From Planctomycetota bacterium (lineage in GTDB: Bacteria > Planctomycetota > Planctomycetia > Isosphaerales > Isosphaeraceae), in the NCBI GenBank assembly GCA_021807585.1, contig JAKBCQ010000002.1:1-17399 (forward strand): 17,399 bases of DNA, written 5' to 3'. This document shows positions 1 to 17,399 of the stretch, piece after piece; positions within the stretch are counted from its first letter, which is position 1; every line of letters starts with the position of its first letter. A program made the translations under genes and the position numbers. The notes beneath the pieces were generated by a model. It worked only from the letters and a program-made list of their open reading frames with translations, had not been told where the DNA came from and did not search any database.

Positions 1-1
1 A

Positions 2-1419: not shown

Positions 1420-1427
1420 ACGACGCT

Positions 1428-2654: not shown

Positions 2655-2666
2655 AAAAAACTCCTC
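2655..2666 (-). promoter_or_regulatory. Ribosome binding site deciding a TTG start; T-run spacer
   Basis: Read on the minus strand, GAGGAG (2666-2661) is followed by TTTTTT and then the TTG start codon, giving an uninterrupted run of eight T ending in the start codon. The spacing and strength of GAGGAG fix the TTG as the start of the helicase. Confidence 0.8.
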
Positions 2667-2683
2667 AAAAACTGAAGGTTAAG

Positions 2684-2701
2684 GAATCGTGCAACCGATT
2701 C
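2684..2701 (-). other. Leader hairpin of the helicase mRNA
   Basis: GAATCG (2684-2689) and CGATTC (2696-2701) form a 6-bp stem with a 6-base loop, about 30 bases before the helicase start and downstream of the predicted promoter. It would therefore lie in the 5' untranslated leader. The stem is short, so a role in translation control is only a possibility. Confidence 0.3.
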
Positions 2702-2734
2702 TCTGGGGATCTCTCATCTATCTAGCTACGATGT

Positions 2735-2763
2735 AGTTTAGCGACACGAAACGTACGAGTCAA
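2735..2763 (-). promoter_or_regulatory. Sigma70-type promoter of the helicase gene
   Basis: On the minus strand TTGACT (2763-2758) is followed by a 17-base spacer and TAAACT (2740-2735), matching the -35 consensus in five of six and the -10 in four of six positions. The -35 lies in a duplicated TTGACTTTGACT. The predicted transcript start gives a leader of roughly 75 bases. Confidence 0.5.
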
Positions 2764-2822
2764 AGTCAACCCGGCGATTTTTTTGAGATTCACCAAAGCT
2801 TCGCAACGAAACGCGGCGCGAT

Positions 2823-2844
2823 CCCGCGGTCGAATCGCCGCGGG
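2823..2844 (-). terminator. Second hairpin downstream of the LTxxQ gene
   Basis: CCCGCGG (2823-2829) and CCGCGGG (2838-2844) form a 7-bp GC-only stem with loop TCGAATCG. It follows directly behind the larger hairpin at 2851-2894 in the direction of minus-strand transcription, giving a tandem structure. It has no T-run. Confidence 0.35.
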
Positions 2845-2850
2845 GAATCA

Positions 2851-2894
2851 CGCGGGTCGAAGGCTCAAGCGGTCGCAAACGCCTTCGACCCGCG
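2851..2894 (-). terminator. Strong hairpin after the LTxxQ gene stop codon
   Basis: CGCGGGTCGAAGGC (2851-2864) and GCCTTCGACCCGCG (2881-2894) are a perfect 14-bp inverted repeat with a 16-base loop. It begins 9 bases after the stop codon at 2904-2906 on the minus strand. Position and stability suggest transcription termination or 3'-end protection, although no U-tract follows. Confidence 0.6.
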
Positions 2895-2903
2895 CTCCAC
2901 AGA

Positions 2904-3299
2904 TCACTTCGAAGACTTGGCGCTCTTCTTCTTCGAGGCGCGTTCCTCGGATTGCTCCTTGTCGATCTTGCGGCGATCTTCGAGCATTTTCTTCTGGGTG
3001 GAAGTGAGCACGGTTTCACATTCTTTAAGTGATTGCGCTTCAAGATCGTCAATTTGACGTTGCAGTTCGGCGATCTTACCGGCGTGCTTGGCGCGGATCG
3101 AGTAGATCTTTTCTTTCTGTTCGCTCGTCAGACCGATGTCGCCGAAGAGAGGCGGCACGCGGCGCGACGGATCGTTCTTTTTCTTGCTCGAGGCCGACTT
3201 GCCCGAAGGTTCTTGCCCCTGGACGTCGCCGAGGAATCCCACGCCCAGGATCAATGCGACTCCCAACCCCGCCGCGTACGCTTTGCGCGACCCGATCAT
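2904..3299 (-). CDS. Exported LTxxQ-motif (Spy-like) protein
   Basis: A 131-residue exported protein. Residues 1-28 are a signal peptide with a basic start, a hydrophobic core GLGVALILGVGFLG and a likely cut after VQG. The linker is Lys/Ser-rich. The mature part carries two LTxxQ motifs, LTSEQ (57-61) and LTSTQ (98-102), on either side of an amphipathic helical stretch, and ends in a Lys/Ser-rich tail. LTxxQ pairs are the mark of the Spy/CpxP periplasmic chaperone-like family, and planctomycetes carry many short members whose function is unknown. The start is ATG at 3299, with AGGA six bases upstream. A possible small upstream frame overlaps this start as ATGA. A 14-bp hairpin follows the stop. 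The family assignment is good; the binding partner is unknown. Confidence 0.85.
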   Translation of the reverse strand: MIGSRKAYAAGLGVALILGVGFLGDVQGQEPSGKSASSKKKNDPSRRVPPLFGDIGLTSEQKEKIYSIRAKHAGKIAELQRQIDDLEAQSLKECETVLTSTQKKMLEDRRKIDKEQSEERASKKKSAKSSK

Positions 3300-3550
3300 G
3301 TTCGGTCCTCTCGATAATGATCAATTTTGTGAAGAATGAGAAACGGACGTAGGTAAATTAATCGATCACGAATCGCGGGGCCAGTGGCCGACGCAAAAAA
3401 TCGACGCGTCGATCGATGATCGCATTCGCCGATTCGAGACTCGCGCTCGAGATCCGCCGAGCCGTCGAGACGCCGAGCCGCGTCCGGATCTCGCTCGATC
3501 AATTGAAGTCGCAACTTCCATCGCCCGATCGGAATATTCTGTATTTTCAT
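3296..3550 (-). CDS. Possible small 84-residue protein upstream of the LTxxQ gene (uncertain)
   Basis: Starting at ATG 3550, with GAGG five bases upstream, this frame encodes 84 residues beginning MKIQNIPIGRWKLRLQLIER. It stops at TGA 3298-3296, which overlaps the ATG of the LTxxQ gene as ATGA, the arrangement typical of translationally coupled genes. Against it, the product is unusually Arg-rich, about one residue in six, which is common in chance frames of this CGA/TCG-rich DNA. It matches no family I know, and it contains a short palindrome plus T6 that could instead be a leader element. I see no signal peptide. I list it as a candidate only. Confidence 0.22.
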   Translation of the reverse strand: MKIQNIPIGRWKLRLQLIERDPDAARRLDGSADLERESRIGECDHRSTRRFFASATGPAIRDRLIYLRPFLILHKIDHYREDRT

Positions 3551-3672
3551 TCGCGCCTCTTGACCCGCCGTCGCGCACGAGCGATGATTACCCATACCCT
3601 TCCGTGAAGTCGGGTCTCCGGCCGCTTCATCTTCGTCGATACGGCGGCGCGCTCATAATTCGGGAGACAAAC
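3300..3672. other. Structured divergent intergenic region
   Basis: A 373-base spacer between divergently oriented genes. It contains the palindrome ATCGACGCGTCGAT (3400-3413), directly followed on the minus strand by six T. It also has a 9-bp inverted repeat CGAGATCCG (3448-3456) / CGGATCTCG (3485-3493), whose loop holds two copies of CGCCGAGCCG (3455-3464 and 3471-3480). Promoters for both flanking genes should be here, but I found no convincing -35/-10 pair on either strand. The only possible gene is the candidate frame listed at 3296-3550. Confidence 0.45.
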
Positions 3673-4647
3673 ATGCGTACACGACGCGCTTGGTTGGCTT
3701 CGACGTTTGTCATTTTCGGTCTCTTATCGGCGAATGACGCCTTCGCGATCGATCCCCCCGGGGGGGATTCACATAATAAACCGGCGAGTTCGGCTCGCTA
3801 CGCGGTCGTAGGCTACATTCCGAACTATCATGTCGATCGTCTCGAGCAGTTCGATCTCAATCGACTGACCGACCTGATCTTTTTCTCGATCGAGCCGACC
3901 GCCGACGGGGGCGTCGATCGCCAGACGCTTACCCCAGAAACTCTCTCGCATCTTCAATCGTTAAAATCAAAGCACGGCTTCCGCCTGCTCGTTTCGGTGG
4001 GGGGATGGGGTCGATCGAATCATTTCGCCGCGATGGCGCGAAATTTGGCGAATCGTCGTCGATTTATCGTCGAATTGACGCGGTTCTGCGTGAATAATCA
4101 ATTCGACGGCGTCGATTACGATTGGGAGCACCCGGCGAATCCCGGTGAAGAATCGGCTTACGCGTCGTTGATCAGCGAAACCAAGAAATCGTTTCAATCG
4201 AGGCGGATGATCGTCACCGCGGCGCTCGCCGCGTGGCAAAAGATGCCCAAAGAAGGGCTCAAGGCTCTCGATCGGATTCACTTAATGGCGTATGATCATG
4301 AGCAACGGCACTCGACCGTCGAACACGCGACCGCCGACATCGATCTGATGATCAAGCGAGGCGTTCCCGCTTCCAAGCTTTGTCTGGGCGCTCCGCTTTA
4401 CGGCCGGATGATCAAAGACGCCAATCAGGTGATGACTTACGGCGAGATCGTCGGTCGATATCACCCCGCGGCGAACGTCGACGAGGTCGACGACTGCTAC
4501 TTTAACGGCGTCGAGACGATGAAGCGGAAAGCCGCGATCGTCCGCGACCGTGGGCTCGCGGGGATGATGATTTGGGAGGTCGGGCAGGACGCCCCCGGCG
4601 ACGCCTCGCTGCTCAAGGCGATCGCGACCGACCTGAACGCTCCCTAA
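3673..4647 (+). CDS. Secreted glycoside hydrolase family 18 (chitinase-like)
   Basis: A 324-residue exported GH18 enzyme, expected to cut beta-1,4 links in chitin or other N-acetylglucosamine polymers. Residues 1-25 form a signal peptide with Arg-rich start MRTRRAW and cut after AFA. The catalytic barrel shows SVGGWG (108-113), the signature DGVDYDWE (145-152) with general acid Glu152 and the assisting Asp148 and Asp150, MAYD (205-208) and the closing strand MMIWEV (298-303). There is no carbohydrate-binding module, so it is a minimal single-domain enzyme. I chose ATG 3673 over the in-frame GTG at 3604 because GGGAG sits six bases before it and the signal peptide then begins at residue 1. Some GH18 members act on peptidoglycan or other glycans, so the exact substrate is open. 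Confidence 0.9.
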   Translation: MRTRRAWLASTFVIFGLLSANDAFAIDPPGGDSHNKPASSARYAVVGYIPNYHVDRLEQFDLNRLTDLIFFSIEPTADGGVDRQTLTPETLSHLQSLKSKHGFRLLVSVGGWGRSNHFAAMARNLANRRRFIVELTRFCVNNQFDGVDYDWEHPANPGEESAYASLISETKKSFQSRRMIVTAALAAWQKMPKEGLKALDRIHLMAYDHEQRHSTVEHATADIDLMIKRGVPASKLCLGAPLYGRMIKDANQVMTYGEIVGRYHPAANVDEVDDCYFNGVETMKRKAAIVRDRGLAGMMIWEVGQDAPGDASLLKAIATDLNAP

Positions 4648-4747
4648 CGACTCGAACCGATCGCGATCGTCGTCGGGTGGAATCGAACGAGGGGAATCGT
4701 TCGGAAAAGTTCGTGGATCGTTCGACCTGATGCGGGTGCGGCGTCGG

Positions 4748-4777
4748 CTTGGTTCGCGCGATCGGTCGCGAACCAAG
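4748..4777 (+). terminator. 11-bp perfect hairpin after the chitinase gene
   Basis: CTTGGTTCGCG (4748-4758) and CGCGAACCAAG (4767-4777) pair perfectly around the 8-base loop CGATCGGT. It is 100 bases downstream of the chitinase stop and about 100 bases before the EF-G start, so it probably separates the two transcripts. No T-run follows. Confidence 0.5.
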
Positions 4778-4878
4778 TTCGGGGTTGCGCTGTGCATTCG
4801 GCGTCGGTCGGTTAAGCTGGAACGATCGATGATCGTCCCCGCTTTGAACCCGCCGCGACACCTGGAACGAACGCGAAC

Positions 4879-6987
4879 ATGAACGAAAGTGAATCTTCCC
4901 CCCTGGCCTCGATCCGCAACATCGGCATCATCGCCCATATCGACGCGGGCAAAACGACGACGACCGAACGGATCCTCTATTACACCGGCATGACGCACCG
5001 AATGGGCGAGGTCGATTCGGGGACGACCGTCACCGATTACCTTGAGGAGGAACGTGAACGCGGGATCACGATCGTCGCGGCGGCGATCACGTGCCGATGG
5101 AAAGATATCACGATCAATATTATCGACACGCCGGGACACGTCGATTTTACGGTCGAGGTCGAGCGTTCGCTCCGCGTCCTCGACGGCGCGGTCGTGATAT
5201 TCTCGGCGGTCGAGGGGGTCGAGGCGCAAAGCGAAACCGTTTGGCGTCAGGCGGCGAAGTACTCCGTCCCGCGGATCTGTTTCATCAACAAGATGGACCG
5301 GATCGGCGCCGAGTACGATCGCGTGTTCCACGAGATCAGCGAGCGGCTTGAGAGCACGCCGATCCCCGTGCAAATTCCGATCGGCGCGGGCCCCGAGGGT
5401 TCGATGGGGGAATTCCAGGGACTCATCGACCTGATCACGATGAAAGCGCTTTATTATAAGACCGAGGATCTGGGCTCGTCGGTCGTCGAGCGCGCGATCG
5501 ACGATTCGCTCCGCGCCGACGCGGATCTGTGGCGTGAAACGATGTTGAACGCGCTATCCGATCTCGACGAGCCGTTCGCAGTCGCTTATATGACGCATCT
5601 CGAGGGGGAAGAGTTGCCGACCTCGGCGATCGAGGCGGCGCTTCGACGCGTGACCGTTTCGGGTCGAGCCCAGCCCGTTTTGTGCGGATCGAGCTTCAAG
5701 TACGTCGGCGTGCAGCGACTGCTCGACGCCGTTTCGGCGTACTTGCCGTGCCCGCTCGATCGTCCTCCCGTCGTCGGTCGGCATCCCAAAAAAGGGACCG
5801 AACTGTCCCGAAAACCGTCGATCGAGGAGCCGTTCTGCGGGCTCGTTTTCAAAATTCAAAATGATGAACACGGCGATCTTTCGTTCGTCCGGGTCTATTC
5901 GGGCGAACTCAAGGCGGGTACGCGCGTTTACAACCCGGGCAAAGATAAAAAAGAGATCTGCTCGAGGCTTTGGCACATTCAGGCCGATGATCGCGAAAAG
6001 GTCGAGACGGCGCACGCGGGAGATATCGTCGGCGTCGTCGGTCTGAAGGATTCGGTGACGGGAGACACGCTCTGCGACGCGACCCAGCCGATCCTCCTCG
6101 AACGGATCGAATTCCCCGAGACCGTGATCAGCATGTCGATCGAGCCGATCAACTCGGCCGACAAGGGGAAACTCGCCGATACGCTCGCGGCGCTTTCACG
6201 CGAGGATCCAACATTCGCTTACAAGTTCAACGATGAGACCGGTCAAACCATTATCTCAGGTATGGGAGAATTGCATCTGGAGATTTTGAAAAATCGGATG
6301 CAGCGTGATTACCGGCTCAAAGCGCATGTCGGTCGGCCTCGGGTGAGTTATCGCGAGACGATCCGGCATGCGGTGAAGGGGATCCAGGGATCTTGCATTC
6401 GTCAGACCGGGGGTTCGGGGCTGTTCGCCAGGGTGAAGATCGACCTTGAACCCGAGGGTCAACCCAAAGGCGCTCCTGTGCTTCGATTTGTGAATAAATT
6501 GAAGGGGGGAGTGATTCCCTCGGAATACATCCCCGCGATCGAGGCCGGCCTGCGTGAGGAAGCGAAATCGGGCGGGAGAACGGGGTTCCCGCTCGTCGAC
6601 CTCAAAGTAACGCTCGTCGACGGCGATACGCACGACGTCGACTCGAACGAAATCGCCTTCCGCGCCGCGGCTTCGGACGCGCTCCGCAAGGCTGTTCATG
6701 AAGCCGGCGCCGTGCTTCTGGAACCGATCATGAAACTCGAGGTCGTAACACCCGAAGAGTATCTGGGGGATGTCGTCGCCGATCTCGGCGGCCGCCGCGC
6801 CGAGATCAGCGAGATGCACAATCGCGGCAAGCTGAAAGTGATCGAGGCGCGGGTTCCGCTCGAGAAGATGTTCGGTTATTCGACCGCCGTCCGAAGCCTG
6901 AGCCAGGGACGCGCAAGCTACTCGATGGAACCGCTCCATTATTCGGCTGCGCCCGCGAGCTTGCTCGAGGTTCTGAGCGGGGAATGA
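4879..6987 (+). CDS. Translation elongation factor G paralogue, EF-G2/spdEFG2-like
   Basis: A full-length 702-residue translational GTPase. The G domain has AHIDAGKT (19-26), switch I RGITI (61-65), DTPGH (83-87) and NKMD (137-140), followed by domains II-V and the ending GRASYSMEPLHY. Canonical EF-G drives tRNA-mRNA translocation. This protein carries VTDYLEEERERGITI and then AAAITCRW, closer to mitochondrial EF-G2 and the planctomycete/spirochaete spdEFG2 group than to the translocation-type EF-G. In mitochondria and in Borrelia that group works mainly in ribosome recycling with RRF. No rpsL, rpsG or tuf lies nearby, unlike the classical str operon, which supports a second copy. ATG 4879 has only a weak upstream GGA. 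Subgroup assignment is by motif resemblance, so I do not use the symbol fusA. Confidence 0.93.
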   Translation: MNESESSPLASIRNIGIIAHIDAGKTTTTERILYYTGMTHRMGEVDSGTTVTDYLEEERERGITIVAAAITCRWKDITINIIDTPGHVDFTVEVERSLRVLDGAVVIFSAVEGVEAQSETVWRQAAKYSVPRICFINKMDRIGAEYDRVFHEISERLESTPIPVQIPIGAGPEGSMGEFQGLIDLITMKALYYKTEDLGSSVVERAIDDSLRADADLWRETMLNALSDLDEPFAVAYMTHLEGEELPTSAIEAALRRVTVSGRAQPVLCGSSFKYVGVQRLLDAVSAYLPCPLDRPPVVGRHPKKGTELSRKPSIEEPFCGLVFKIQNDEHGDLSFVRVYSGELKAGTRVYNPGKDKKEICSRLWHIQADDREKVETAHAGDIVGVVGLKDSVTGDTLCDATQPILLERIEFPETVISMSIEPINSADKGKLADTLAALSREDPTFAYKFNDETGQTIISGMGELHLEILKNRMQRDYRLKAHVGRPRVSYRETIRHAVKGIQGSCIRQTGGSGLFARVKIDLEPEGQPKGAPVLRFVNKLKGGVIPSEYIPAIEAGLREEAKSGGRTGFPLVDLKVTLVDGDTHDVDSNEIAFRAAASDALRKAVHEAGAVLLEPIMKLEVVTPEEYLGDVVADLGGRRAEISEMHNRGKLKVIEARVPLEKMFGYSTAVRSLSQGRASYSMEPLHYSAAPASLLEVLSGE

Positions 6988-7079
6988 ATCTTTGAAATCG
7001 AGACGTCATCGCGGATTAAACGAGCAATCGCTTGTCGAATTCGCGTCTTCTTCTTGTCGATCCGCTGATCGTGTTCGAT

Positions 7080-10000
7080 TCATGGAACGGGATTTTCGGC
7101 GGGGAGTGGGACCTGCGTCTGGTGTTTGAGGTAGGCGAAGAGATCACGAATTTGATCGTCGTTGATCGTCGAGGCCAGTCCGTCGGGCATGAGCGATCGA
7201 TCCGACGGTCGCTCGTCTTCGATGTCGGAGCGATCGATGACGATCGCCTCGTTCTGGGTTTGAAGCGTGAGGGTGCGCTCGGTCCGATTCCGAATCAGTC
7301 CGTTGAGCACGCGACCGTCGCGGAGCGCGACGACCGTCATTTTGAAGTCGGCGTTCACCGTCGCGGCGGGATCGAAGACGTTCTCAAGCAGATATTCGAG
7401 ATTATCGCGACCCGCTCCGGTGAGATCGGGACCGATCGCTCCACCATATCCATATAACTTATGACATGACGAGCAAACTTTGTTAAACAACACCCTCCCC
7501 GCGCCGAGATCGGCGCCGGCGAGAGCTTGTTCGTTTAATTTCTTGCGCATGATAGCGATTTGCGCTTTGCGATCGGCGGGGGTGTCGTGGATCTCTCCCC
7601 AGGTTTCGCCGAGTTTGCGCGTCAAGCGCGGGTCGCCGAGTTCGCGGATTTGCCGAGCCTGGAACGCCGAGACGTCGCCGCGGGGGATTTTTCCGAGGGC
7701 CAGGGCGTCGAGCAGCGCGGAAGCGAACGACGGCCGCGAGACGAGAGCGTCGATCACCGCGGCGCGTTCGGACGGATGAAACGCACGATAACTCGCCGCC
7801 AACCGAGCGCCGATCGCGGGATCGTCGAACCCCGCGAGCCCTCGCGCCGCGGTCTTGTTCAAAAAGCGAACGCCGAGCAGCCGCTCGCAGATCGACCGTA
7901 AATCGTCGGGGCGAGCCGCGATCAACGATTCGAGCGCGGATTGTCGCAAAAGAATATCCGCATGATTATCAAGCGCCGTCTTTTTGATTTCATCAAGAGC
8001 TCGTCCCACGCCGAAGACGACGGCGAGCTCGCGAGCCTTGCTCTCGATCTCGGGGTTCGCGTCGCGTTCGACGGCGCGCGCCAAGTTATCCCACGACGCC
8101 GGTCGAGGCGCTTTCCGCCTGCCTCGAAGCGCCTGCCAAACCCCGGCGATCACGTCGCCTCGCAGCGGTCGAGACGCGCTCGAAGCCGCCGCCAGCAAGC
8201 GATCGAGCGGAGCGGGATTCGATTCGATCTCCTCGGCGAGTCGCCGTGCGATCAGGCGACGCGTCGTCGCGATCTCGCACGTCTCGCCCAGCCGAGCGAG
8301 CGTCGACAGATCGGCGTCGGCGACAGGTATCAAGCCGTACCATATCAGCAATGGTAAATTATGATCGGACGAATCTTCTTTGTGTCGCAGCAGCGGCTCG
8401 GCGAGCGCCGTTCGATCCGCGATCGTCAGCCTGCAAAGCGTCGACGCCAGGATCAACCGCACGAGCGCCGAATCGTCGTCCCGCGCGATGCGGACGAATT
8501 CGGAGAGCACGTCGCGCGGAAGCGATCGCTCCCCCGCGGGACGTTTGCCGAGCACCGTATCGAGCGGAGCGTCCTCGGTAAGAAGACGAACGCCCCACGC
8601 TCGAACCGATTCATGCTTATCTTTAAGAAGTGAACGAAAGATTGCTTCGTTATCGTTTGAGTCGCGCACCGCCCGCAGCGTCCAGACCGCCCGAAGTTTG
8701 CGGACGGGATCGGACTCGCGCGCGATCATCTGTTCCGCGGCGGCGACCGCGGCGACGGGTTTCTCTCCCGCGGCGGCTCGATCCGCCAGTACCCGCCGAG
8801 CCCCGCGCGCGAACCATTCGTTCGAATCGCGCTGGTATTCGACAAGTTCGATCTCGCTCGCCTTCGTAAGATCAACCGGTTTGAACTTGTTCTGATCTCC
8901 GTATGAGAACTTAAATATTCGCCCCGATGTTCGATGAACGCCGTCGTTTTCGTGGCATTCGCCCGCGTCGCTCCAATCGAGGACGAAAGCGTTTCCATCG
9001 GGGGATTGAGAGATCTCCATACCGCGGAACCACGCGTCGGCGGCGAAGAAGACGTCGGCCTCGTGGCGGCCGACATAGCCGCTTCCCGCACGATCAAGCC
9101 GATCGACGTTGGCGCGCCTGCCGTGCATGTTGAGCGTGAAGAGCCTGCCTCGATATTGTTCGGGCCAGCGGTTCGCCTGATAAATCATCGCGCCGATGTG
9201 CGCATGCCCCCCTCCTTTTTTATCGTGCTCCCCCTTCGCCGAACGCGAATCGGTCCAGTCTTTGGATTCATCCCAGTGCCAATGATCGGCGTGTTGATCG
9301 ATCAGTTCATAAACATGCGGGTTGGGGTCGATCGTATGGGGTCGAACGAAATGCATTCCGGCGATCGCGTGCCAAAGGTGCCCGTTGACGGTGTTGATGA
9401 AAAAAGGCTCGCCGAATTCGTTCCAGTCGTGCCCCCAAGGGTTCGTCACGCCGTGAGCGAGCGCCTCGAACCGCTTCGTTCGCGGGCTGAACCGCCACAA
9501 TCCTCCGGCGAGCGGAACTCGATCCGCCGCGGGCGATCCGGGAGGACCGACGAGCCCCGGAGAAGACGCTCCGCATCGGCCGTATAAATCGCCGTCGGGT
9601 CCCCATCGTAATCCATTGGCAAAATTATGATAATTTTCTTCGGGAACGGTGAAGCCGTCGAGCACGACGCGGGCGGGACCGTCGGGACGGTCGTCGCCGT
9701 CGCGATCGGGAATGAACAGGAGCCGCGGCGGACACATCAGCCAAACGCCGCCGAGTCCGACCTCCACGCTTGTTAATGTTTGCACTTGATCGGTGAAAAC
9801 GGTGCGGCGGTCGAACTTGCCGTCGCCGTCGGAATCTTCCAGGATCAACACGCGATCACGAAGGTTGAGATCGAACCGAACGGCGCGTTCGGAATACGTG
9901 TAATTCTCGGCCACCCAGACGCGTCCGCGGGCGTCCCACGTCATCGCGATCGGATTCATCACGTCGGGCTCGGCGGCGAACACCGAAACGCGAAAACCGG

Positions 10001-10160
10001 GAGGCGTGCGGAACGAAGCCGCCGCCTTCTCCGCGGGCGAAGGGCCGGTGCGATCGGGTTCGCTGTTATAAAGCCGCGGGAAATCGTCGGCTTCAACTCG
10101 AACGTCACACCACAAAGCCACCGAAAGAACGACGATTCCGATCAATTCTCGGGGCTTCAT
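7080..10160 (-). CDS. Exported PVC-type membrane-bound dehydrogenase with C-terminal cytochrome c domain
   Basis: A 1026-residue exported protein of the large planctomycete/verrucomicrobial family with a sugar-dehydrogenase-like propeller and a haem domain. A signal peptide (1-24, cut near VEA) is followed by a beta-propeller region opening with TPPGFRVSVFAAEPDVMNPI. It carries two Asp-rich loops, DSDGDGKFD (109-117) and DRDGDDRPDG (152-161), which resemble calcium sites. A helical HEAT-like stretch runs from about 430 to 850. Last comes a class I cytochrome c module with CSSCH (896-900) and a probable axial Met991 in SLMPDG. It should oxidise an unknown carbohydrate-like substrate outside the cytoplasmic membrane and pass electrons through the haem; the substrate cannot be read from sequence. 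ATG 10160 has AAGGA nine bases upstream. A good promoter lies at 10252-10280. Confidence 0.92.
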   Translation of the reverse strand: MKPRELIGIVVLSVALWCDVRVEADDFPRLYNSEPDRTGPSPAEKAAASFRTPPGFRVSVFAAEPDVMNPIAMTWDARGRVWVAENYTYSERAVRFDLNLRDRVLILEDSDGDGKFDRRTVFTDQVQTLTSVEVGLGGVWLMCPPRLLFIPDRDGDDRPDGPARVVLDGFTVPEENYHNFANGLRWGPDGDLYGRCGASSPGLVGPPGSPAADRVPLAGGLWRFSPRTKRFEALAHGVTNPWGHDWNEFGEPFFINTVNGHLWHAIAGMHFVRPHTIDPNPHVYELIDQHADHWHWDESKDWTDSRSAKGEHDKKGGGHAHIGAMIYQANRWPEQYRGRLFTLNMHGRRANVDRLDRAGSGYVGRHEADVFFAADAWFRGMEISQSPDGNAFVLDWSDAGECHENDGVHRTSGRIFKFSYGDQNKFKPVDLTKASEIELVEYQRDSNEWFARGARRVLADRAAAGEKPVAAVAAAEQMIARESDPVRKLRAVWTLRAVRDSNDNEAIFRSLLKDKHESVRAWGVRLLTEDAPLDTVLGKRPAGERSLPRDVLSEFVRIARDDDSALVRLILASTLCRLTIADRTALAEPLLRHKEDSSDHNLPLLIWYGLIPVADADLSTLARLGETCEIATTRRLIARRLAEEIESNPAPLDRLLAAASSASRPLRGDVIAGVWQALRGRRKAPRPASWDNLARAVERDANPEIESKARELAVVFGVGRALDEIKKTALDNHADILLRQSALESLIAARPDDLRSICERLLGVRFLNKTAARGLAGFDDPAIGARLAASYRAFHPSERAAVIDALVSRPSFASALLDALALGKIPRGDVSAFQARQIRELGDPRLTRKLGETWGEIHDTPADRKAQIAIMRKKLNEQALAGADLGAGRVLFNKVCSSCHKLYGYGGAIGPDLTGAGRDNLEYLLENVFDPAATVNADFKMTVVALRDGRVLNGLIRNRTERTLTLQTQNEAIVIDRSDIEDERPSDRSLMPDGLASTINDDQIRDLFAYLKHQTQVPLPAENPVP

Positions 10161-10251
10161 GGCGCACGATCCTTAATGATAAATATCAACGAATTTAATT
10201 CCGCGATCGCGATCGCATTCGGCCGGTCGTCGATCGCCCGGCTCGGAATCG

Positions 10252-10280
10252 ATTATAAATGCGTTCGACCCCGCGGGCAA
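10252..10280 (-). promoter_or_regulatory. Sigma70-type promoter of the cytochrome c/dehydrogenase gene
   Basis: On the minus strand TTGCCC (10280-10275) is followed by exactly 17 bases and a perfect TATAAT (10257-10252). The predicted start leaves a leader of about 85 bases before ATG 10160. The -35 matches TTGACA at four of six positions. Confidence 0.6.
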
Positions 10281-10303
10281 AGCGCGAACCGTTGAATCAG
10301 AGC

Positions 10304-10323
10304 GAGGGGGAGGGGGAGGGGGG
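10304..10323 (+). repeat. G-rich polypurine tract
   Basis: Twenty consecutive purines: GA followed by G5, A, G5, A and G6 on the plus strand. It lies 24 bases upstream of the -35 element of the cytochrome gene promoter. Three G-runs are not enough for a standard four-run intramolecular quadruplex, but the mirror-like tract could form a triplex or pair with another G-run. Confidence 0.7.
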
Positions 10324-10452
10324 CGAGATTTTTATACTTGCAAACATGTCAGAGCATTGAGAGGATTTTCGATCGCTCGGTCGGGTTGAGTGATCAAGCG
10401 TATCAAATCGAATCGGCGTTCGAACCCGCGAGGAACACGAAAACGGCGAACG

Positions 10453-10499
10453 TCTCGCGCTCGATCGCTTTGCGGGATCGATGGAGATCGAGCGCGAGA
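10453..10499 (-). terminator. 14-bp perfect hairpin after the small exported protein gene
   Basis: TCTCGCGCTCGATC (10453-10466) and GATCGAGCGCGAGA (10486-10499) pair perfectly around a 19-base loop. It begins 21 bases past the stop codon at 10521-10523 on the minus strand. A CGTTTTCG stretch follows shortly downstream, but there is no clean U-tract. Confidence 0.6.
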
Positions 10500-10520
10500 G
10501 GGAGAACGATCGACCAAAGC

Positions 10521-11012
10521 TTACGGGATAAGCCCTGAGCTCCCGGCGTTCGTCGGCGGCGCCTCGACGCGTCCCGAGAACCGGGGAACACGAACCCGCG
10601 GACCGCGACTGATCGTCTCATTGTAAGGATTCATCGGCGTACTGTCGGAAGCGAGCGGAGGTCCCCCCATCGGATGCTCGCCGCCGCAGCCGGCGTAAGG
10701 AATGTATCTTTCGCCTCGATTAATGTACGGATTGTAATATGTTGACAAAAACGATTGATCAGGGCGCGAAGCGAAGTAGCGCGGGAAGAAGTATTCGGGG
10801 TTGCGATCGGCGCCGAGTGGTAGTGTGTCGCCGTAATCGATCCAGCCGTAATGATCGGGGCTGTCGTTGGGGAAACCCCAACCGGCGCCCGGCCCTGGAG
10901 CGAGGATTCGGCCGCCTCCGCCGAAGTGGCGCGCCTCGCGGATTCGACCGAGAAGCCCTCCGGGAGAGCTCATCGCCAGGATTAAGACGACCGTCGTGGC
11001 GGAAATCGTCAT
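10521..11012 (-). CDS. Small exported Gly/Tyr/Pro-rich protein of unknown function
   Basis: A 163-residue protein I cannot assign to a named family. The start ATG 11012 is fixed by a near-ideal AAGGAGG seven bases upstream; a longer frame to 11102 exists but lacks such a site. Residues 4-22 (SATTVVLILAMSSPGGLLG) are a hydrophobic segment resembling a signal peptide, though without a basic start. The rest is rich in Gly, Pro, Tyr and Arg, with segments such as GWIDYGDTLPLGADRNPEYF (56-75), STYYNPYINRGERYIPYAG (90-108) and RVPRFSGRVEAPP (141-153). It has a single Cys109. This looks like an extracytoplasmic structural or low-complexity protein; I infer planctomycete restriction from style, not from a search. 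A 14-bp hairpin follows the gene. Confidence 0.72.
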   Translation of the reverse strand: MTISATTVVLILAMSSPGGLLGRIREARHFGGGGRILAPGPGAGWGFPNDSPDHYGWIDYGDTLPLGADRNPEYFFPRYFASRPDQSFLSTYYNPYINRGERYIPYAGCGGEHPMGGPPLASDSTPMNPYNETISRGPRVRVPRFSGRVEAPPTNAGSSGLIP

Positions 11013-11259
11013 CTGTTTTCCTCCTTGCTCGTCGAGGCGCGACGACCGCGCTCGGACGAGGGCCGCGCGCGGCGAAGTCGGCAATTTTCTCAAGCGTATC
11101 ATGCGAATCGAATCGACGTCGAAATCCCCTTCGGTTTCACTTCCGCGTCGCCGTTAAAACCGGTACGATTCAAGGGTCCCGGCCGTGTCTCGCGGTGAGC
11201 GGGACGACTCGAACGTGTTCGCCTTCGTCGATTCGATTCCGACGTGAAGTTGGGGCGGT
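11013..11259. promoter_or_regulatory. Divergent control region between the small exported protein gene and pabA
   Basis: A 247-base spacer separating divergently oriented genes, which must hold both promoters. It contains the perfect 12-bp palindrome GCCGCGCGCGGC (11062-11073), a possible operator or hairpin. I could not pick a convincing -35/-10 pair for either direction. Confidence 0.35.
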
Positions 11260-11874
11260 ATGATCCTTTTAATCGATAATTACGATTCGTTTACTTATAA
11301 CCTGGTGCAACGATTGGGAGAGATCGACTCGACGATCGAACTCAAGGTCGTCCGAAACGATCAAATCACGCTCGACGCGATCGAAGAGCTGGCGCCCGAA
11401 CGGATCATCATTTCGCCGGGTCCCTGCACGCCGAGGGAGGCCGGTATTTCCACCGACGTCGTGCGTCGGTTCGGCGCCAAAATCCCCCTGCTCGGAGTCT
11501 GTCTCGGCCATCAGTGCATCGGCGAGGCGTTCGGCGCCGCGATCGTTCGCGCCGATCGGATCATGCACGGCAAGACGTCGCTCATTCGTCACGACGGCGC
11601 GGGCCTTTATCAGGGGGTCGCAAACCCGTTCGAGGCCACGCGTTATCACAGCCTTGTCATCAAGCCGGGCACGCTCCCCGACGAGCTCCGCGTCGTCTCC
11701 TGGACCGACGAGGGAGAAATCATGGGAGTTCGCCACCAAAGCCTGCCGATCGAAGGGGTTCAATACCACCCGGAGAGCTTTCTCACCGTCGAGGGGCACG
11801 CGCTTTTGCGCAATTTTTTGTTGATGCGTCTGGACGGTCGACTCGTTCGCTCGATCGACGTGAACCTCGAGTAA
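11260..11874 (+). CDS. pabA: Glutamine amidotransferase subunit of aminodeoxychorismate/anthranilate synthase
   Basis: A 204-residue class I glutaminase that releases ammonia from glutamine for the partner synthase acting on chorismate. The start MILLIDNYDSFTYNLVQ is the family signature. The oxyanion region ISPGPCTP is at 51-58, the catalytic Cys81 in GVCLGHQ (79-85) and the His170-Glu172 pair in YHPES (169-173), so the triad is complete and the length normal. PabA (folate) and TrpG (tryptophan) cannot be separated by sequence alone, and in many bacteria one protein serves both; no component I gene is in the window. ATG 11260 has GGGG close upstream. moeA follows after 23 bases on the same strand, suggesting a cofactor-oriented operon, which slightly favours the folate role. 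Confidence 0.92.
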   Translation: MILLIDNYDSFTYNLVQRLGEIDSTIELKVVRNDQITLDAIEELAPERIIISPGPCTPREAGISTDVVRRFGAKIPLLGVCLGHQCIGEAFGAAIVRADRIMHGKTSLIRHDGAGLYQGVANPFEATRYHSLVIKPGTLPDELRVVSWTDEGEIMGVRHQSLPIEGVQYHPESFLTVEGHALLRNFLLMRLDGRLVRSIDVNLE

Positions 11875-11897
11875 GATCGCGGGAAAAGGAGGCGCCG

Positions 11898-13187
11898 GTG
11901 ACGACGGTCGAAGAGGCGAAGAGGCTGATTCTCGAACGTACCGGAACGCTCACCGCGAAGCGATTGGTGCTTTCTCAGAGCCACGGTCTCGTCCTCGCCG
12001 ATCCGATCTTCGCCGACCGCGATTCGCCGCCGTTTGACAAGGCGCTCGTCGACGGCTACGCGATCCGCTCGAGCGATTATCGCGGCGGAGATCAAGCGTG
12101 GCGGGTCGGCGAACGCGTCGTCGCGGGTTCCGAACCCAAATACCCGCTCGAACCCGGCGCGACGGCGCTCGTCATGACCGGAGCGCCCGTCCCGCAAGGT
12201 TGTGATTGCATGATTATGCGTGAGCAATCCAGGCGGGTTGAATCGTCAAATCAAATCGATTGTTCAAGCGAGTTTGTTTCGTTTGATCTCGGAGAAATCC
12301 CCCGGCCGGGGCGGAACGTCGCGCGGCGTGGAAGCGAATTCCACGGCGGCGACCTCTTGATTGAAGCGGGCGTTCGGCTCGATCCGGTCGTCTCCGCGAT
12401 CGCCGCGACGGTCGGTTATCACACTCCCAAGATCGTCCCGCGTCCTTCGGTTTTGATCGTGCCGACGGGGAACGAACTCGTTTCGCCGCAGGTCGAGCCC
12501 GGGAGGCTCCGCATCCGTGAATCGAACGGAACGCTCTTGAAAGGGTTTTGCCTTCAAGCGGAATGCGCCGCGATCATCCTACCGATCGTCGACGACGAAG
12601 CCGATCGATTATATCAATCTCTTGAATACGCTCTTTCCAACGCCGACGTCGTTCTCATTTGCGGAGGCGTTTCGGCGGGGGATCTTGATCTCGTCCCCGA
12701 AACGCTCGAAAAACTCGGTGTGGAACGCGTGTTTCATAAGGTTTCAATCAAGCCCGGCAAGCCGATTTGGTTCGGTGTGAAGAGTCGCCGACGGCCGCCG
12801 GGCGATTTTCCGGTCGCGCGTGCCGACGACGGCCCCGAACGGCTTGTTTTCGGCCTTCCCGGCAATCCCGTCAGCGGACTCGTGTGCTTTTTGGAGTTTG
12901 TTCTCCCCGCGTTACGCAAGCTTGCCGGAAGGCCCGACAAAGGGGAATCGAGAGAACGAATGCCCCTTTCGGCGCGGTTCGAGCAGCGCGGCGACCGGAC
13001 TTCGTACCAGCCCGCTCGCCTCGTTCGAGAGCGCCCGACCGATCGTCCCTTGATCCAGACGCTTGCCTGGAAAGGCTCGGCCGATTTACGTTCGGTCGCT
13101 CGCGCCGACGGTTTCGCGATATTTCCACCCGGCGACCGAATCTATGAAGAGGGGGATTGCGTCGATTTTCTGCCGATCAGGGGTTAA
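11898..13187 (+). CDS. moeA: Molybdopterin molybdenumtransferase MoeA
   Basis: A 429-residue cytoplasmic enzyme that inserts molybdate into adenylylated molybdopterin in the last step of molybdenum cofactor synthesis. Family marks in order are DSPPFDKALVDGYA (42-55, with the conserved Asp52), VMTGAPVPQGCD (92-103), GRNVARRGSEF (138-148), PTGNEL (189-194), RESNG (207-211), GGVSAGD (256-262), HKVSIKPGKP (280-289) and GLPGNPVSG (319-327). The C-terminal beta domain is complete. The start is GTG 11898, fixed by AAAAGGAGG five bases upstream. The frame is open further back through pabA, but that part encodes nothing MoeA-like and is a chance extension. It follows pabA by 23 bases. No other moa, mob or mog gene is in the window. 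Confidence 0.95.
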   Translation: MTTVEEAKRLILERTGTLTAKRLVLSQSHGLVLADPIFADRDSPPFDKALVDGYAIRSSDYRGGDQAWRVGERVVAGSEPKYPLEPGATALVMTGAPVPQGCDCMIMREQSRRVESSNQIDCSSEFVSFDLGEIPRPGRNVARRGSEFHGGDLLIEAGVRLDPVVSAIAATVGYHTPKIVPRPSVLIVPTGNELVSPQVEPGRLRIRESNGTLLKGFCLQAECAAIILPIVDDEADRLYQSLEYALSNADVVLICGGVSAGDLDLVPETLEKLGVERVFHKVSIKPGKPIWFGVKSRRRPPGDFPVARADDGPERLVFGLPGNPVSGLVCFLEFVLPALRKLAGRPDKGESRERMPLSARFEQRGDRTSYQPARLVRERPTDRPLIQTLAWKGSADLRSVARADGFAIFPPGDRIYEEGDCVDFLPIRG

Positions 13188-13382
13188 AGCGAACGCGATT
13201 CTCGTCGAAGCCGAGGAACGCCGAACGAACGGTTTGGATCAAATCGCGCGTACGACCGTCGATTCGATGCGACTCGACGCGATCCGCCCGATCGAGGCGA
13301 AAGGCGATTCAAGCCGCTTGGGCGATCGGAATCCGACGATCGACTAAACATCGATCATTCCAGATAGAACAGGATGTCATTG

Positions 13383-15176
13383 ATGAAGAAGCGATCGAAG
13401 GATCGACTCCGCGCGGGCGGGAAGACGAACGAAGCGGGACGAACCGCGATCGTCGCGAGCGCGGCTGAGCCGTCGTTCGAAGAGAAAACATACGCGGCGC
13501 CGAACCCGATCGTTCTGGGAATTACCTCGGGGCTATTGTTGTGGTGTTCGTTTCCTCCCGCGGGTTGGCGTTGGCTCGTTTGGATCGCGGTTGCGCCTTT
13601 GTTTTCGCTGATCGGCAGTCGACGCTCGCCGGCGCTCATCTATCTGGGGGCGTGGCTCGGCGGCGAGGTGTTTTGGCTCGCCGCGATCCGCTGGGTTAGC
13701 CTGGCGGACGAATCGGCGCGGCTCGGCTGGATCGTGATGGCGACTTTCCTTTCGCTCTTCTGGGTGCTCTTCGTCCGATTGGCGCGGGTCGCTCATTTGC
13801 GATTCAAGATTCCGCTTTTAATCGCCGCGCCGGTCGTCTGGACCGGACTCGAACAACTTCGCGCACACATATTAACAGGTTTTCCTTGGTATAACCTGGC
13901 GCATGCGCTTGTTGATCCGGCACGAATCGGCGGATCGCCCGATCCTTTGCCGCAGATCGCCGATTTCGCGGGGGCGATCGGCGTGAGCCTGATTTTGGCG
14001 ATCGTGAACGCGTATTTCGCCGAGTGGATTGAAGTCTTGGCGGCGACCGACGACGAGCGGATTCGACGAGCGTTCGATCGCGGTCGAATCAAACGCGGCG
14101 CGATCGTCTTATCAATAATTATTTGCTGTTATTTATACGGCGTGTATCGAATCTCGCAGGCGCGGTTCAAGCCCGGTCCGCGGATCGCGGTGTTGCAAAC
14201 CGACATCGTACAAAGGTATCGCGATACGATCACGCCGATCGACGCGATCGCCAAATTTGATAAGTTGACGACCGCGGCCGCTTCGTCGGGCGAGCGTCCC
14301 GATCTGATCGTGTGGCCCGAAACGGCGTATCCGTATGGATACGTGACGATCGACCCCAAAATCTCCAACGACGAGTTGAACCGACAGGCGGCGATGATCA
14401 GTGATTCGTGGAACGCTTCGACCGTCCGCGAACGCCGCGACGACGTGAGCGAGCACGTTCATTCGTGGACCGATCGGCTCGGTTCTCCGATGCTCCTCGG
14501 CGCGACGCATTACGTTTTCGGCCCCGGCGGTCCCGCACGATACAACGGAGCGATACTTCTTCAACCACATTCCTTATTGATCCAGGCATATCATAAACTC
14601 CATCTTGTGCCGTTTGGAGAATACGTTCCGCTCGTCGACGTCTTCCCGTGGTTGACGATTCTGACGCCGTATCGCGGCCGCAAGGTGACGGGACTGACGT
14701 TCGGCGAACGCGTGTCGATCATCCGGCTTAAAGATTATCGATTCGCGGTATGGATATGTTTTGAAGATACGTTGCCGTATACGGCGCGGCGTTTTTTCGC
14801 CGAATCGACCGGCGGCGATCCCGATTTCGTGATCAATCAATCGAACGACGGCTGGTTCCACGGCTCGGAGGAACACGACATGCACCTGGCGATCAGCGTG
14901 TTCCGCGCGATCGAAAATCGGACGCCGATCGCGCGCGCCGTCAATCTGGGAATCTCGGCGTTCATCAACGGCGACGGAGTGATTGAGGCGGTGATTCCCA
15001 AGAAGGCGATGAAATCGCTGACGCGATCGATCACGCTCGACGACCGCTCGGCGCTTTATTCCAGGCTCGGCGACTGGCCGGGGGGGATTTGCCTCGTCGC
15101 GTGCGGCGGATTGCTCGTCGCTCCAATTTTTCTTCGTGGAAACAAATCCACAAACAAATCTAAGTTAAGTCAATAA
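13383..15176 (+). CDS. lnt: Apolipoprotein N-acyltransferase
   Basis: Integral membrane enzyme that adds the third acyl chain to the N-terminal cysteine of lipoproteins. The N-terminal part has several hydrophobic segments and TGFPWYNLAH, typical of the Lnt membrane domain. The nitrilase-like domain carries the catalytic triad Glu313 (WPET), Lys405 (YHKLHLVPFGEY) and Cys459 (VWICFED), followed by NQSNDGWF. Glu and Lys are 92 residues apart against 68 in the E. coli enzyme (Glu267, Lys335), so about 24 extra residues sit there. I chose ATG 13383, with AGGA eight bases upstream, over ATG 13374, which would add three residues but has no spaced ribosome site. The 195-base gap after moeA suggests its own promoter, though none was clear. 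Confidence 0.94.
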   Translation: MKKRSKDRLRAGGKTNEAGRTAIVASAAEPSFEEKTYAAPNPIVLGITSGLLLWCSFPPAGWRWLVWIAVAPLFSLIGSRRSPALIYLGAWLGGEVFWLAAIRWVSLADESARLGWIVMATFLSLFWVLFVRLARVAHLRFKIPLLIAAPVVWTGLEQLRAHILTGFPWYNLAHALVDPARIGGSPDPLPQIADFAGAIGVSLILAIVNAYFAEWIEVLAATDDERIRRAFDRGRIKRGAIVLSIIICCYLYGVYRISQARFKPGPRIAVLQTDIVQRYRDTITPIDAIAKFDKLTTAAASSGERPDLIVWPETAYPYGYVTIDPKISNDELNRQAAMISDSWNASTVRERRDDVSEHVHSWTDRLGSPMLLGATHYVFGPGGPARYNGAILLQPHSLLIQAYHKLHLVPFGEYVPLVDVFPWLTILTPYRGRKVTGLTFGERVSIIRLKDYRFAVWICFEDTLPYTARRFFAESTGGDPDFVINQSNDGWFHGSEEHDMHLAISVFRAIENRTPIARAVNLGISAFINGDGVIEAVIPKKAMKSLTRSITLDDRSALYSRLGDWPGGICLVACGGLLVAPIFLRGNKSTNKSKLSQ

Positions 15177-15313
15177 ATGTTTAGAATCGTTCGAATTTTT
15201 TGACGCCGGCCGATCGGTATCGGCGTTGGGAAACGGGCGGACGACCCTACCCGCGACCGAATCGCCGCGCGACGGATTTTGGGCTCTTCATCGCGATGAA
15301 CACATGAACCTAG

Positions 15314-15338
15314 TATCCGAAAGATATTCTTTCGGATA
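15314..15338. terminator. 10-bp perfect hairpin between convergent genes
   Basis: TATCCGAAAG (15314-15323) and CTTTCGGATA (15329-15338) pair perfectly around the tight loop ATATT. It lies between the convergent lnt and MurE-like genes, about 140 bases past lnt and 112 past the other stop, so it could stop transcripts from both sides. There is no adjoining T-run on either strand. Confidence 0.5.
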
Positions 15339-15449
15339 TGCGGCTCGCCGTGAGGTTCGCCTTATTATATTTGGGTTCGCCCGCGACGGCGGATCTCGAA
15401 TCGGATCACCCGATTGCGTGGGCGATTCAATTCGGCGCTCGTCGACGAT

Positions 15450-16967
15450 TCAAGCGGTGTGCCTTCGTCGATCGGACGCGGCGCGGCGAAGCCGACGAAT
15501 CGCGACGACAAAATCGCTCGAACCGATCGCGTCGTTCGAGAAATCGGCGTGCATCGCCCGCCTCGCTCCCACGATCAGCACGCCGTCGGCGGCGGACGAT
15601 TCGTCGATCGCCTTCTCGATCGCCGCGGCGCGACGCGGCTCGTGCTCGATCGTCGCCGACGAATCGAACATCGATCCCCAAATCGCCGGCCAATCTTCGC
15701 TCGATCGCGATTGCAACAAATCGCTTGTTAAAATCAAATGATCCGCATATCGGCCCGCGATCTTGGCCGATGATCGTCGTCCCGCGGTCGTCGCGGCGAC
15801 GTCGGGACCGAGCACGCATCGAATCTTCCCCGCCACGATCGCTCGTAACGACCGAAACGCGAGCTTGAGGTCGCGCGTCGATTCAATCGCCTCGATCCAC
15901 ACGGGAAATCCCTGGCCTTCTTGGATCGGTTCGAATCGTCCAGGAACGCGGTCGACCGCTTCAATCCCGGCGACGATCGGCTCGATCGATACGCCCGATG
16001 ATCGCGCCGCGGCGAAAGCCGCGATCGCGGCGGGAAGACGACCCGCGCCGGCTAATTTCAAATGAACATGAGATTCAGCGTTTGTTTCTTTGACGAGCAA
16101 ACGCGATCCCGACGCGTCGGCGCTTTCGATTTTCGCGGAGAAATCGGCGGGAGCGAAGAGCCCGAACGTCACGCGGTCGGCTTCGAGATTCACGCCTCCC
16201 AGAATCTCGACCTCGGGATCGTCGGCGGCGACGATCGCGGCGCCGTCGGGAGCGACCATCCGCACGAGTCGAGCGTGCCTCATGCGTTCCAGACGCAGCT
16301 TCTCACCGCGCACCGGAGATCCGGTCGAAAGATCGGTCACGACGGCGCGATCAAGCGTCACGCCTTCAATCAACCGATTCTCAAGCGTCTCCGAAGAAAC
16401 GAGTAAGACGGCGCCTTCGCATTCGTTTTCAACCATTCGGGCGAGCATCCGCGCCCAGACCTCGGGCTTCCAGGGGGGCGGAGCGACGGGCAAGCGCGAT
16501 CGACCGTCGAACCAGCCGTCGCGGCCCACGTAACCGTAACGTCGCCCGGACGCCTCGTAGATCGATCGGAGAAAGACGCTCGTCGTCTCGGCGCTCGAGA
16601 GTCCCGATACCGCGATCAGCTTGAGCCGGCTCGAAGGATCCCCCGCTAGCGCCTGGCAAATCCTGCCGTAAGCCGAGCGGGTATCGGAGACGACAATCTG
16701 CACGGGACCCGCCGATTCGCAGAACCGATCGACGACGACCCCCGACGCTCCCCGATCAAGCGCCTTGGCGATCTGATCGTGACCGTCGATTCGTTCGCCT
16801 CGAATCGCGATGTAAACCTGACCGGGCTCGATCCTTCGGCTATCCGCCGAGCATCCCGAGACGATCAGGTCCGGACAACCGACGAACCGCGCTCCAGGAA
16901 GCAAGTGGCGAAGGCTGACCGAGGGGATGCCCGATTGGGCGAAACGATCGACAAACCAACGAGCCAT
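15450..16967 (-). CDS. MurE-family Mur ligase homologue lacking catalytic motifs (probable pseudoenzyme)
   Basis: A 505-residue intact frame with MurE architecture. The N-terminal UDP-binding part keeps CSADSRRIEPGQVYIAIRGE (39-58) followed by DGH (61-63), and the joint to the C-terminal domain keeps PGRFEPIQEGQGF (342-354). Active-site motifs are lost. The expected GTNGKTT loop reads GLSSAETT (122-129), with Glu127 replacing the ATP-binding lysine. The DHLD motif after the TN position is replaced by STGSPVRGEK. DYAH reads EAIE (359-362), DNPR reads DLLQ (416-419) and GKGHE reads GARRA (467-471). It should therefore not catalyse ATP-dependent amino acid addition; binding of UDP-MurNAc peptide or a structural role is possible. 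ATG 16967 has GGAGG nine bases upstream. It follows a DUF1553-type gene on the same strand. Confidence 0.85.
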   Translation of the reverse strand: MARWFVDRFAQSGIPSVSLRHLLPGARFVGCPDLIVSGCSADSRRIEPGQVYIAIRGERIDGHDQIAKALDRGASGVVVDRFCESAGPVQIVVSDTRSAYGRICQALAGDPSSRLKLIAVSGLSSAETTSVFLRSIYEASGRRYGYVGRDGWFDGRSRLPVAPPPWKPEVWARMLARMVENECEGAVLLVSSETLENRLIEGVTLDRAVVTDLSTGSPVRGEKLRLERMRHARLVRMVAPDGAAIVAADDPEVEILGGVNLEADRVTFGLFAPADFSAKIESADASGSRLLVKETNAESHVHLKLAGAGRLPAAIAAFAAARSSGVSIEPIVAGIEAVDRVPGRFEPIQEGQGFPVWIEAIESTRDLKLAFRSLRAIVAGKIRCVLGPDVAATTAGRRSSAKIAGRYADHLILTSDLLQSRSSEDWPAIWGSMFDSSATIEHEPRRAAAIEKAIDESSAADGVLIVGARRAMHADFSNDAIGSSDFVVAIRRLRRAASDRRRHTA

Positions 16968-17326
16968 CGGTTCTGGCCTCCATGCCGATACGGGACCGAT
17001 CTATCCGTCGTCCTTGACCGGGAATTCACGTTCCGTTCCCGAGTCCCAACCCCAAGCGGTCGAACCGCCTGATCGCCTCGCGTCCATCCAGCGACATCCA
17101 GCGACCCATCGAGCGGCCGCATTTTCGCCGGCATTCAAAAAAACGCAATCCCAAGGTCGCGGAATGTCGATGATTTCCGTTTACCCTCGAACGATCATCG
17201 CGCTCTCACAACCGTTTCCAAGCCTTCACGAGCCCTCAGAGATGGCGATCGCGGCTTCAGCATGCCTTCAACCGCATCGCGATCTCTCGCCGATCCTTCG
17301 GCGTGTCATCCCCTCAAGATCGGCGA
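16968..17326. other. Intergenic region upstream of the MurE-like gene
   Basis: A 359-base stretch without a credible gene. It holds the GGAGG site of the MurE-like gene (about 16977-16981), a tandem ATCCAGCGAC duplication (17086-17105) and a run of seven A near 17136. A hairpin pair next to the DUF1553-type stop codon is listed separately. I found no convincing promoter, so the two minus-strand genes could share a transcript or the promoter may be atypical. Confidence 0.4.
17287..17326 (-). terminator. Hairpin abutting the DUF1553-type stop codon
   Basis: TCGCCGATC (17287-17295) and GATCGGCGA (17318-17326) are a perfect 9-bp inverted repeat with a 22-base loop, ending directly against the stop codon at 17327. 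An alternative shorter stem, CGCCGA (17288-17293) with TCGGCG (17298-17303), uses the same left arm, so the two are mutually exclusive. Confidence 0.45.
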
Positions 17327-17399
17327 TCAATGCCGGAAGAGGAACTCTTTCGAGTTGATCAGCACCCAGCCCAGATCCTCAACCGCCTGCCTGCGATTC
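17327..17399 (-). CDS. C-terminal end of a DUF1549/DUF1553-type protein (partial)
   Basis: The last 24 residues of a minus-strand gene that enters from the right edge: they read NRRQAVEDLGWVLINSKEFL, then FRH and, after a further base fragment at the edge, TGA at 17329-17327. The ending DLxWxLINSKEFLFxH is characteristic of the large DUF1549/DUF1553 proteins abundant in planctomycetes, which often carry a cytochrome c module (PSCyt1) and sit next to DUF1501 genes. The function of that family is unproven, with proposed roles in polysaccharide (sulfated glycan) breakdown. Only the tail is visible, so domain content cannot be judged. A hairpin begins directly after the stop. Confidence 0.78.
   Translation of the reverse strand, partial: NRRQAVEDLGWVLINSKEFLFRH

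Follow-up and report, generated by a model that had tools for sequence, protein, structure and literature searches.

A selectively maintained MurE homologue with eroded catalytic motifs in the planctomycete family Isosphaeraceae

Introduction

The use of peptidoglycan enzymes by planctomycetes is an old dispute. Here, we describe a MurE-like gene in a stretch of 17,399 nucleotides from a planctomycete genome of the family Isosphaeraceae (assembly GCA_021807585.1, contig JAKBCQ010000002.1, positions 1 to 17,399; this whole stretch is called the window throughout). In MurE itself, domain 1 is described as the uridine site, the TGTxGKT loop as the place where ATP sits, between domains 2 and 3, and the DNPR motif, together with Glu-468 of the Escherichia coli enzyme, as binding the incoming amino acid (PMC3829189). 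One homologue of MurE, PAP11, is described as a peripheral subunit of the plastid RNA polymerase (PMC12681378; PMC9456514) and is reported to be unable to replace moss MurE (PMC12681378).

Within the planctomycetes, the Isosphaerales and two other orders are reported to have lost murA, murC, murD, murF and murG, with murB conserved throughout (PMC12283558). The murE gene is termed 'semi-conserved' in the Planctomycetia and is described as non-essential in Planctopirus limnophila (PMC10632474; non-essentiality also PMC12283558), and murB, murE and mraY have been reported for Paludisphaera borealis (PMC5352709). It is already published that these orders lost the pathway and retain murE patchily; from none of the titles and abstracts found could it be recognised that planctomycete MurE had lost its active site.

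Results

The MurE-like gene was assigned on the basis of its open reading frame, Pfam and NCBIfam profile matches and homologues. It consists of 505 codons and a stop codon on the minus strand (15450..16967), reads from an ATG at 16967 down to 15450 and is preceded by a GGAGG ribosome-binding site nine bases ahead of the start codon (16977..16981, minus strand), which confirms the uninterrupted 505-residue frame with a good ribosome site proposed in an earlier interpretation of the bare letters (the sequence-only reading). The plus-strand reading of 15450-16967 is interrupted by stops. All three Mur-ligase Pfam domains score above their gathering scores and MurE is the best-scoring of the Mur ligases, placing the protein by ancestry in the MurE branch of the Mur ligase superfamily. 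The best NCBIfam models are those of MurE, yet every one stays under its curated cut-off: TIGR01085 gave 164.2 bits (162.4 in the genome search) against a cut-off of 257.3, short of the score expected of a functional MurE.

The predicted structure of the window protein is a complete MurE fold. It resembles MurE (TIGR01085; PDB 1e8c, 2wtz, 4bub, 4c12) over nearly the full length in its three-domain architecture, with DSR and DGH in domain 1 and PGR at the domain joint. The protein starts with a family-typical N-terminal extension (residues 1-15, MARWFVDR..., 16923..16967, minus strand), which is absent from canonical MurE of related planctomycetes. Domain 1 (residues 16-112, 16632..16922), the middle or ATPase domain (residues 113-334, 15966..16631) and the C-terminal domain (residues 335-470, 15558..15965) follow on the same strand.

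Alignment with planctomycete MurE (genomes G025, G030 and G038 of family f2, G029 of f6, G027 of f4, and a contig of G003) bore out every motif retention and substitution that the sequence-only reading had listed. In the window protein, GLSSAET (residues 122-128, 16584..16604, minus strand) replaces the P-loop GTNGKTT, EAIE (359-362, 15882..15893, minus strand) replaces DYAH, DLLQ (416-419, 15711..15722, minus strand) replaces DNPR, GARRA (467-471, 15555..15569, minus strand) replaces GKGHE, and DHLD is absent. Retained are DSR (42-44), DGH (61-63) and PGRFE (342-346). The comparison adds further losses, as the E and H of EVSSHAL are changed to L and E and the position of the carbamylated lysine is occupied by H; both aspartates of the NADD motif are retained. 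Unlike in MurE, the P-loop, DHxD, carbamyl-lysine, DYAH, DNPR and GKGHE are thus all replaced. Three features of functional MurE are missing: the P-loop pattern GxxGK[ST], the carbamylated lysine together with the EVSSHAL glutamate, and, at the amino-acid site, DNPR together with the GKGHE glutamate. By alignment, the landmarks of domain 1 are retained and the ATP and amino-acid sites are lost.

The same motif losses occur in G001, a genome of the same genus, which carries the gene at 93% identity and without an indel, and in P0001 (four member sequences, five contigs). Orthologues with the same substitutions therefore exist in related genomes, and since both show identical losses, an assembly artefact is ruled out. 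Between the window gene and its G001 counterpart, the nonsynonymous rate dN is 0.041 and the synonymous rate dS 0.449, giving a ratio (omega) of 0.092, with values of 0.014 for residues 31-112, 0.07 for residues 113-334 and 0.14 for residues 335-505. In 1000 simulations with an equal number of random base changes, 996 copies acquired a stop codon, and the simulated minimum was 105 amino-acid differences, compared with 37 observed. The window gene is not visibly decaying and is under purifying selection. With its fold kept as predicted, its catalytic residues lost and its sequence under constraint, the protein has the sequence hallmarks of a pseudoenzyme. For other pairs in the family, omega was 0.28 (G007/G024), 0.22 (G006/G023) and 0.26 (G006/G004).

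A separate observation concerns codons 1-30 (16878-16967), where dS against G001 is 0.09 compared with 0.45 overall, a weak signal from about 23 synonymous sites. This low synonymous divergence perhaps reflects a translation-start signal.

To learn how constraint is distributed over the protein, we compared domain identities, leaving out P0087, whose C-terminus does not align, and the canonical MurE of G003. Across 370 divergent family pairs, mean identity was 59% in domain 1 and 39% in the middle domain. The window protein compared with the family (134 rows) gave 64% for domain 1, 42% for the middle domain and 33% for the C domain, whereas in canonical MurE (10 pairs) domain 1 and the middle domain both stood at 40%. 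Dividing domain 1 identity by middle-domain identity accordingly gave mean ratios of 1.57 for family pairs (0.56-2.38), 1.51 for the window protein against the family (0.87-2.17) and 0.99 for canonical MurE (0.73-1.23). As far as identities can tell, constraint in the family has moved to domain 1, which binds uridine in MurE. In the N-terminal extension, residues M1, R3, W4, F5 and R8 are present in 121/121 sequences of the listed set.

The sequence-only reading had considered a single gene; the erosion turned out to be family-wide. From 495 homologues at E <= 0.001, we compared 120. Those with names come from Singulisphaera, Tundrisphaera, 'Isosphaeraceae bacterium' and planctomycete labels of broader rank, and the assignment to Isosphaeraceae follows from these names. 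A MurE-like gene is present in 32/45 genomes of the window's family. With P0048, a homologue from Singulisphaera sp. PoT, as reference, 33 gave a match at E <= 1e-10, but that of G011 is a MurF-like protein and was not counted. When only genomes with a completeness of at least 90% and a contamination of no more than 5% are counted, 18/26 have a match, or 17 without G011. The gene was not found in 13 of the 45 family genomes (four of g5, four of g8, G010, G011, G012, G020 and G045).

Motifs were counted in 135 rows (119 listed homologues, P0087 included, and 16 genome copies), excluding the window's genus and P0001 and keeping near-duplicates. The P-loop lysine position holds K in 59 rows and R in 54, the full GxxGK[ST] pattern occurs in 41, the carbamyl-lysine in 55, and P-loop and carbamyl-lysine together in 26. 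Exact DNPR is found in 92 rows. The remaining motifs are far scarcer: the EVSSHAL histidine in 2 rows and its E..H pair in none, the DYAH histidine in 2 and exact DYAH in none, the D..H pair of DHxD in none, and the GKGHE glutamate in 7 with exact GKGHE in 2. All motif sets together occur in 0/135 rows. In a FastTree tree from which the P-loop and DNPR columns were omitted, the window protein, G001 and P0001 fall into one clade (support 100), joined at 99 on a long branch by P0007, in which DNPR and GKGHE are also lost. On the same tree, which gave long-branch warnings and does not hold the canonical group on one side of the root, the P-loop position switches between K and other states at least 19 times within the family; these are changes, not only losses. 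Judged by these alignments, the erosion of MurE motifs is family-wide, with the window's genus among the most extreme cases.

To place the gene in its pathway, curated models were searched against 40 genomes, 25 of the window's family and 15 others of the class. MurA, MurC, MurD, MurF, MurG and MraY were each above the curated cut-off in 0/25 family genomes, so that the substrate-making partners of a functional MurE (MurA, MurC, MurD) are missing at this threshold. MurB was above its cut-off in 20/25 and below it in four, of which three matched only in part; one genome gave no match. The same searches recover the pathway in families f2 and f6, except for MurG of G029 and G038 (192 and 231 bits, cut-off 250.25), and the method thus works. 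The loss agrees with what is reported in PMC12283558 and PMC10632474; the mraY reported for Paludisphaera borealis (PMC5352709) differs from our MraY matches in the family, which are all sub-threshold.

The window's own genome has MurB above the cut-off (C10:4898-5716) and no recognisable MurA; as it is 68.75% complete, absence in this genome alone proves little. A second intact murE, which the sequence-only reading had proposed to look for, was not found there by the TIGR01085 search at E <= 10. Its other matches are C25:3560-4696 (105.4 bits), within a frame of 1033 residues that by its length is perhaps a cyanophycin synthetase, and a weak one on C90. The only separate canonical MurE in the family lies in G003, near the edge of the 17-kb contig C163 beside an ftsI-like frame, in a genome with 5% contamination. 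We take both frames to be alphaproteobacterial from their appearance, and this MurE is probably contamination. With the pathway enzymes missing in all 25 genomes and the G003 gene looking like a contaminant, the known substrate chain seems to be absent. The MurE-like gene occurs in 18/25 of the searched family genomes, and 8/18 pass the TIGR01085 cut-off (six outright, two with neighbouring pieces).

Two further Mur-ligase-like proteins were observed in the family. In 8/8 family genomes that carry a MurC-like protein, it scores under the MurC cut-off and, by coordinates, lies directly beside murB (L096-L102 in G009, G015, G010, G019, G021, G024 and G002, and G007:C786). GxxGK[ST] is present in 0/7 fetched MurC-like proteins, and the two that were scanned both match MurC best; in the window's genus, no such protein was found at E <= 1e-10. 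The MurE-like protein is hence not the only Mur ligase that persists without a P-loop in this family after the loss of the pathway. In G011, which lacks the MurE-like gene, a 452-residue frame (G011:C70:10930-11970, L103) has a Mur-ligase-like middle; its P-loop (GSVGKTTT) looks intact, and its MurF score is sub-threshold.

Among known structures, PAP11 was the top Foldseek match of the window protein and ranked second by sequence, both alone and as a profile. In a control, canonical planctomycete MurE also matched PAP11 well, which weakens the case for a special relationship, and VIA-align puts MurE chains above PAP11 for the window protein. For both reasons, the resemblance reflects ancestry rather than a shared function. 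PAP11 differs from the window protein in having more than 200 residues N-terminal to the matched part and in retaining DYAH and GKGHE. By analogy, PAP11 is a precedent for the recruitment of MurE, not evidence of the same role.

A second comparison is offered by the orphan MurE of family f5 (G028, G037; L018, L019), which is likewise without MurA, MurC, MurD, MurF, MurG or MraY above cut-off (omega of the pair 0.27). It erodes in the opposite way: the P-loop GTNGKTT is kept, as is the carbamyl-lysine, whereas DNPR and GKGHE have disappeared along with parts of DSR. Orphan MurE proteins hence need not share one retained function.

Finally, we compared the gene neighbourhood in 17 family loci of 5.6-20 kb, with scans limited to proteins common to several loci. 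In the window, an apolipoprotein N-acyltransferase above its NCBIfam cut-off (13374-15176) is convergent with the MurE-like gene, and a TrpG/PabA-type amidotransferase lies further along (11260-11874). No Rfam match was found in the window and thus no RNA element. At the DNA level, the window resembles G001 in the gene itself, in roughly 240 bases upstream of it and in the window's last 85 bases; on the downstream side, the similarity does not continue within the 20 kb compared. These last 85 bases (17315-17399) match the end of the G001 copy of a PSCyt2/PSD1 (DUF1549/DUF1553) protein with Big_2, which is encoded upstream of the MurE-like gene, and on its strand, in G001, G002, G009, G018 and G021 (L076, L077, L082, L085, L087). 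In G006, G009 and G014 (L089, L077, L081), mraW and a LysM protein are located 1-8 kb from the MurE-like gene. As mraW belongs to the division and cell-wall gene cluster, these neighbours are perhaps a remnant of it. In the 17 loci, neither the PSCyt2/PSD1 nor the mraW/LysM neighbours name a function for the MurE-like gene.

Discussion

The maintained pseudoenzyme proposed by the sequence-only reading is supported at the sequence level by the purifying selection (dN/dS of 0.09 against G001), the losses shared with G001 and P0001 and the predicted MurE fold. We consider that the window protein, a derivative of MurE, has probably been repurposed for binding or scaffolding without catalysis and is kept folded by selection. 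Its ancestor was a MurE in a planctomycete family that lost the cytoplasmic peptidoglycan pathway except for MurB. The MurE reaction needs ATP, Mg2+, the amino acid and the dipeptide of UDP-N-acetylmuramic acid (UDP-MurNAc). Of these, the first three find no binding residues in the window protein, and for the fourth the family has no recognisable producing enzymes. Because the residues for ATP, Mg2+ and the incoming amino acid are gone, the protein is most likely no ligase. Selection retains chiefly domain 1, plus the overall fold, which would leave a protein that binds or scaffolds and does not catalyse.

Several observations weigh against this interpretation. The ratio of domain 1 to middle-domain identity spreads widely (0.56-2.38), and domain 1 alone does not explain the constraint within the genus, where the middle and C domains also have low omega values (0.07 and 0.14). 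Residues 1-30 have an omega of 0.33 from two nonsynonymous and two synonymous differences, too few to judge, and the full R3-W4-F5-R8 pattern is not kept in 3/18 genome copies (G003, G018 and G021). Retention of the P-loop lysine, GxxGK[ST] and DNPR in part of the family (59, 41 and 92 of the 135 rows) means that some members may still bind nucleotide or amino acid, PAP11 retains the P-loop GTNGKTT that the window protein lost, and the 13 genomes without the gene show that it is dispensable for some family members.

A special form of the binding or scaffold interpretation is a UDP-sugar sensor or carrier, in which domain 1 binds UDP-N-acetylglucosamine or the substrate of MurB and the dead ligase body signals to a partner. 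Domain 1 is the most constrained part and keeps DSR and DGH, it is described as the uridine site in MurE (PMC3829189), and MurB persists in 20/25 family genomes and in the window's genome; without MurA, however, the usual MurB substrate is not made, and we regard this form as possible but not probable. New chemistry, raised by the sequence-only reading, would require a different nucleotide site or substrate in place of the MurE reaction. The complete predicted fold, the 92/135 relatives with exact DNPR and the 26/135 with both P-loop and carbamyl-lysine would leave room for it in the family, but this genus has neither the P-loop lysine nor the EVSSHAL glutamate and is also without DHxD, carbamyl-lysine and DNPR. 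These losses, the D..H pair of DHxD in 0/135 relatives and at least 19 changes of the P-loop state make an altered ligase unlikely for this genus.

That the gene is a relic on its way to being lost, kept only through chance and recent common descent, would fit the lost pathway, its absence from 13/45 genomes and the reported non-essentiality of murE in Planctopirus limnophila (PMC10632474, PMC12283558). An omega of 0.09, no stop and no indel at a dS of 0.45, at which neutral simulations acquired stops in 996/1000 cases, make decay quite improbable. Least credible, to the point of being nearly dismissible, are two roles that the sequence-only reading had put forward, a partner of an active MurE or MurF or a sensor of UDP-MurNAc peptides. 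MurE ancestry, the kept domain-1 motifs and the second, canonical MurE of G003 would be in line with them, but MurA, MurC, MurD, MurF, MurG and MraY reach the cut-off in none of the 25 genomes, and the extra MurE, near a contig edge beside an ftsI-like frame in a genome with 5% contamination, is probably a contaminant.

Many family homologues carry the source name 'UDP-N-acetylmuramoyl-L-alanyl-D-glutamate--2,6-diaminopimelate ligase'. Together with the 8/18 copies that pass the MurE cut-off, such naming means that eroded homologues can be counted as evidence of peptidoglycan synthesis. As a tentative generalisation, which we hold to be somewhat doubtful, Mur ligases might have been converted rather than discarded after peptidoglycan loss: the eroded MurE and, in some genera, the P-loop-less MurC beside MurB would then form a new class of regulators derived from Mur ligases, which bind UDP-sugars or serve as scaffolds, without catalysis, in the control of the envelope or of division. 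If our interpretation of the window protein as a binding or scaffold protein is true, a Mur ligase of bacteria can persist in a non-catalytic form after the pathway to which it belonged has gone.
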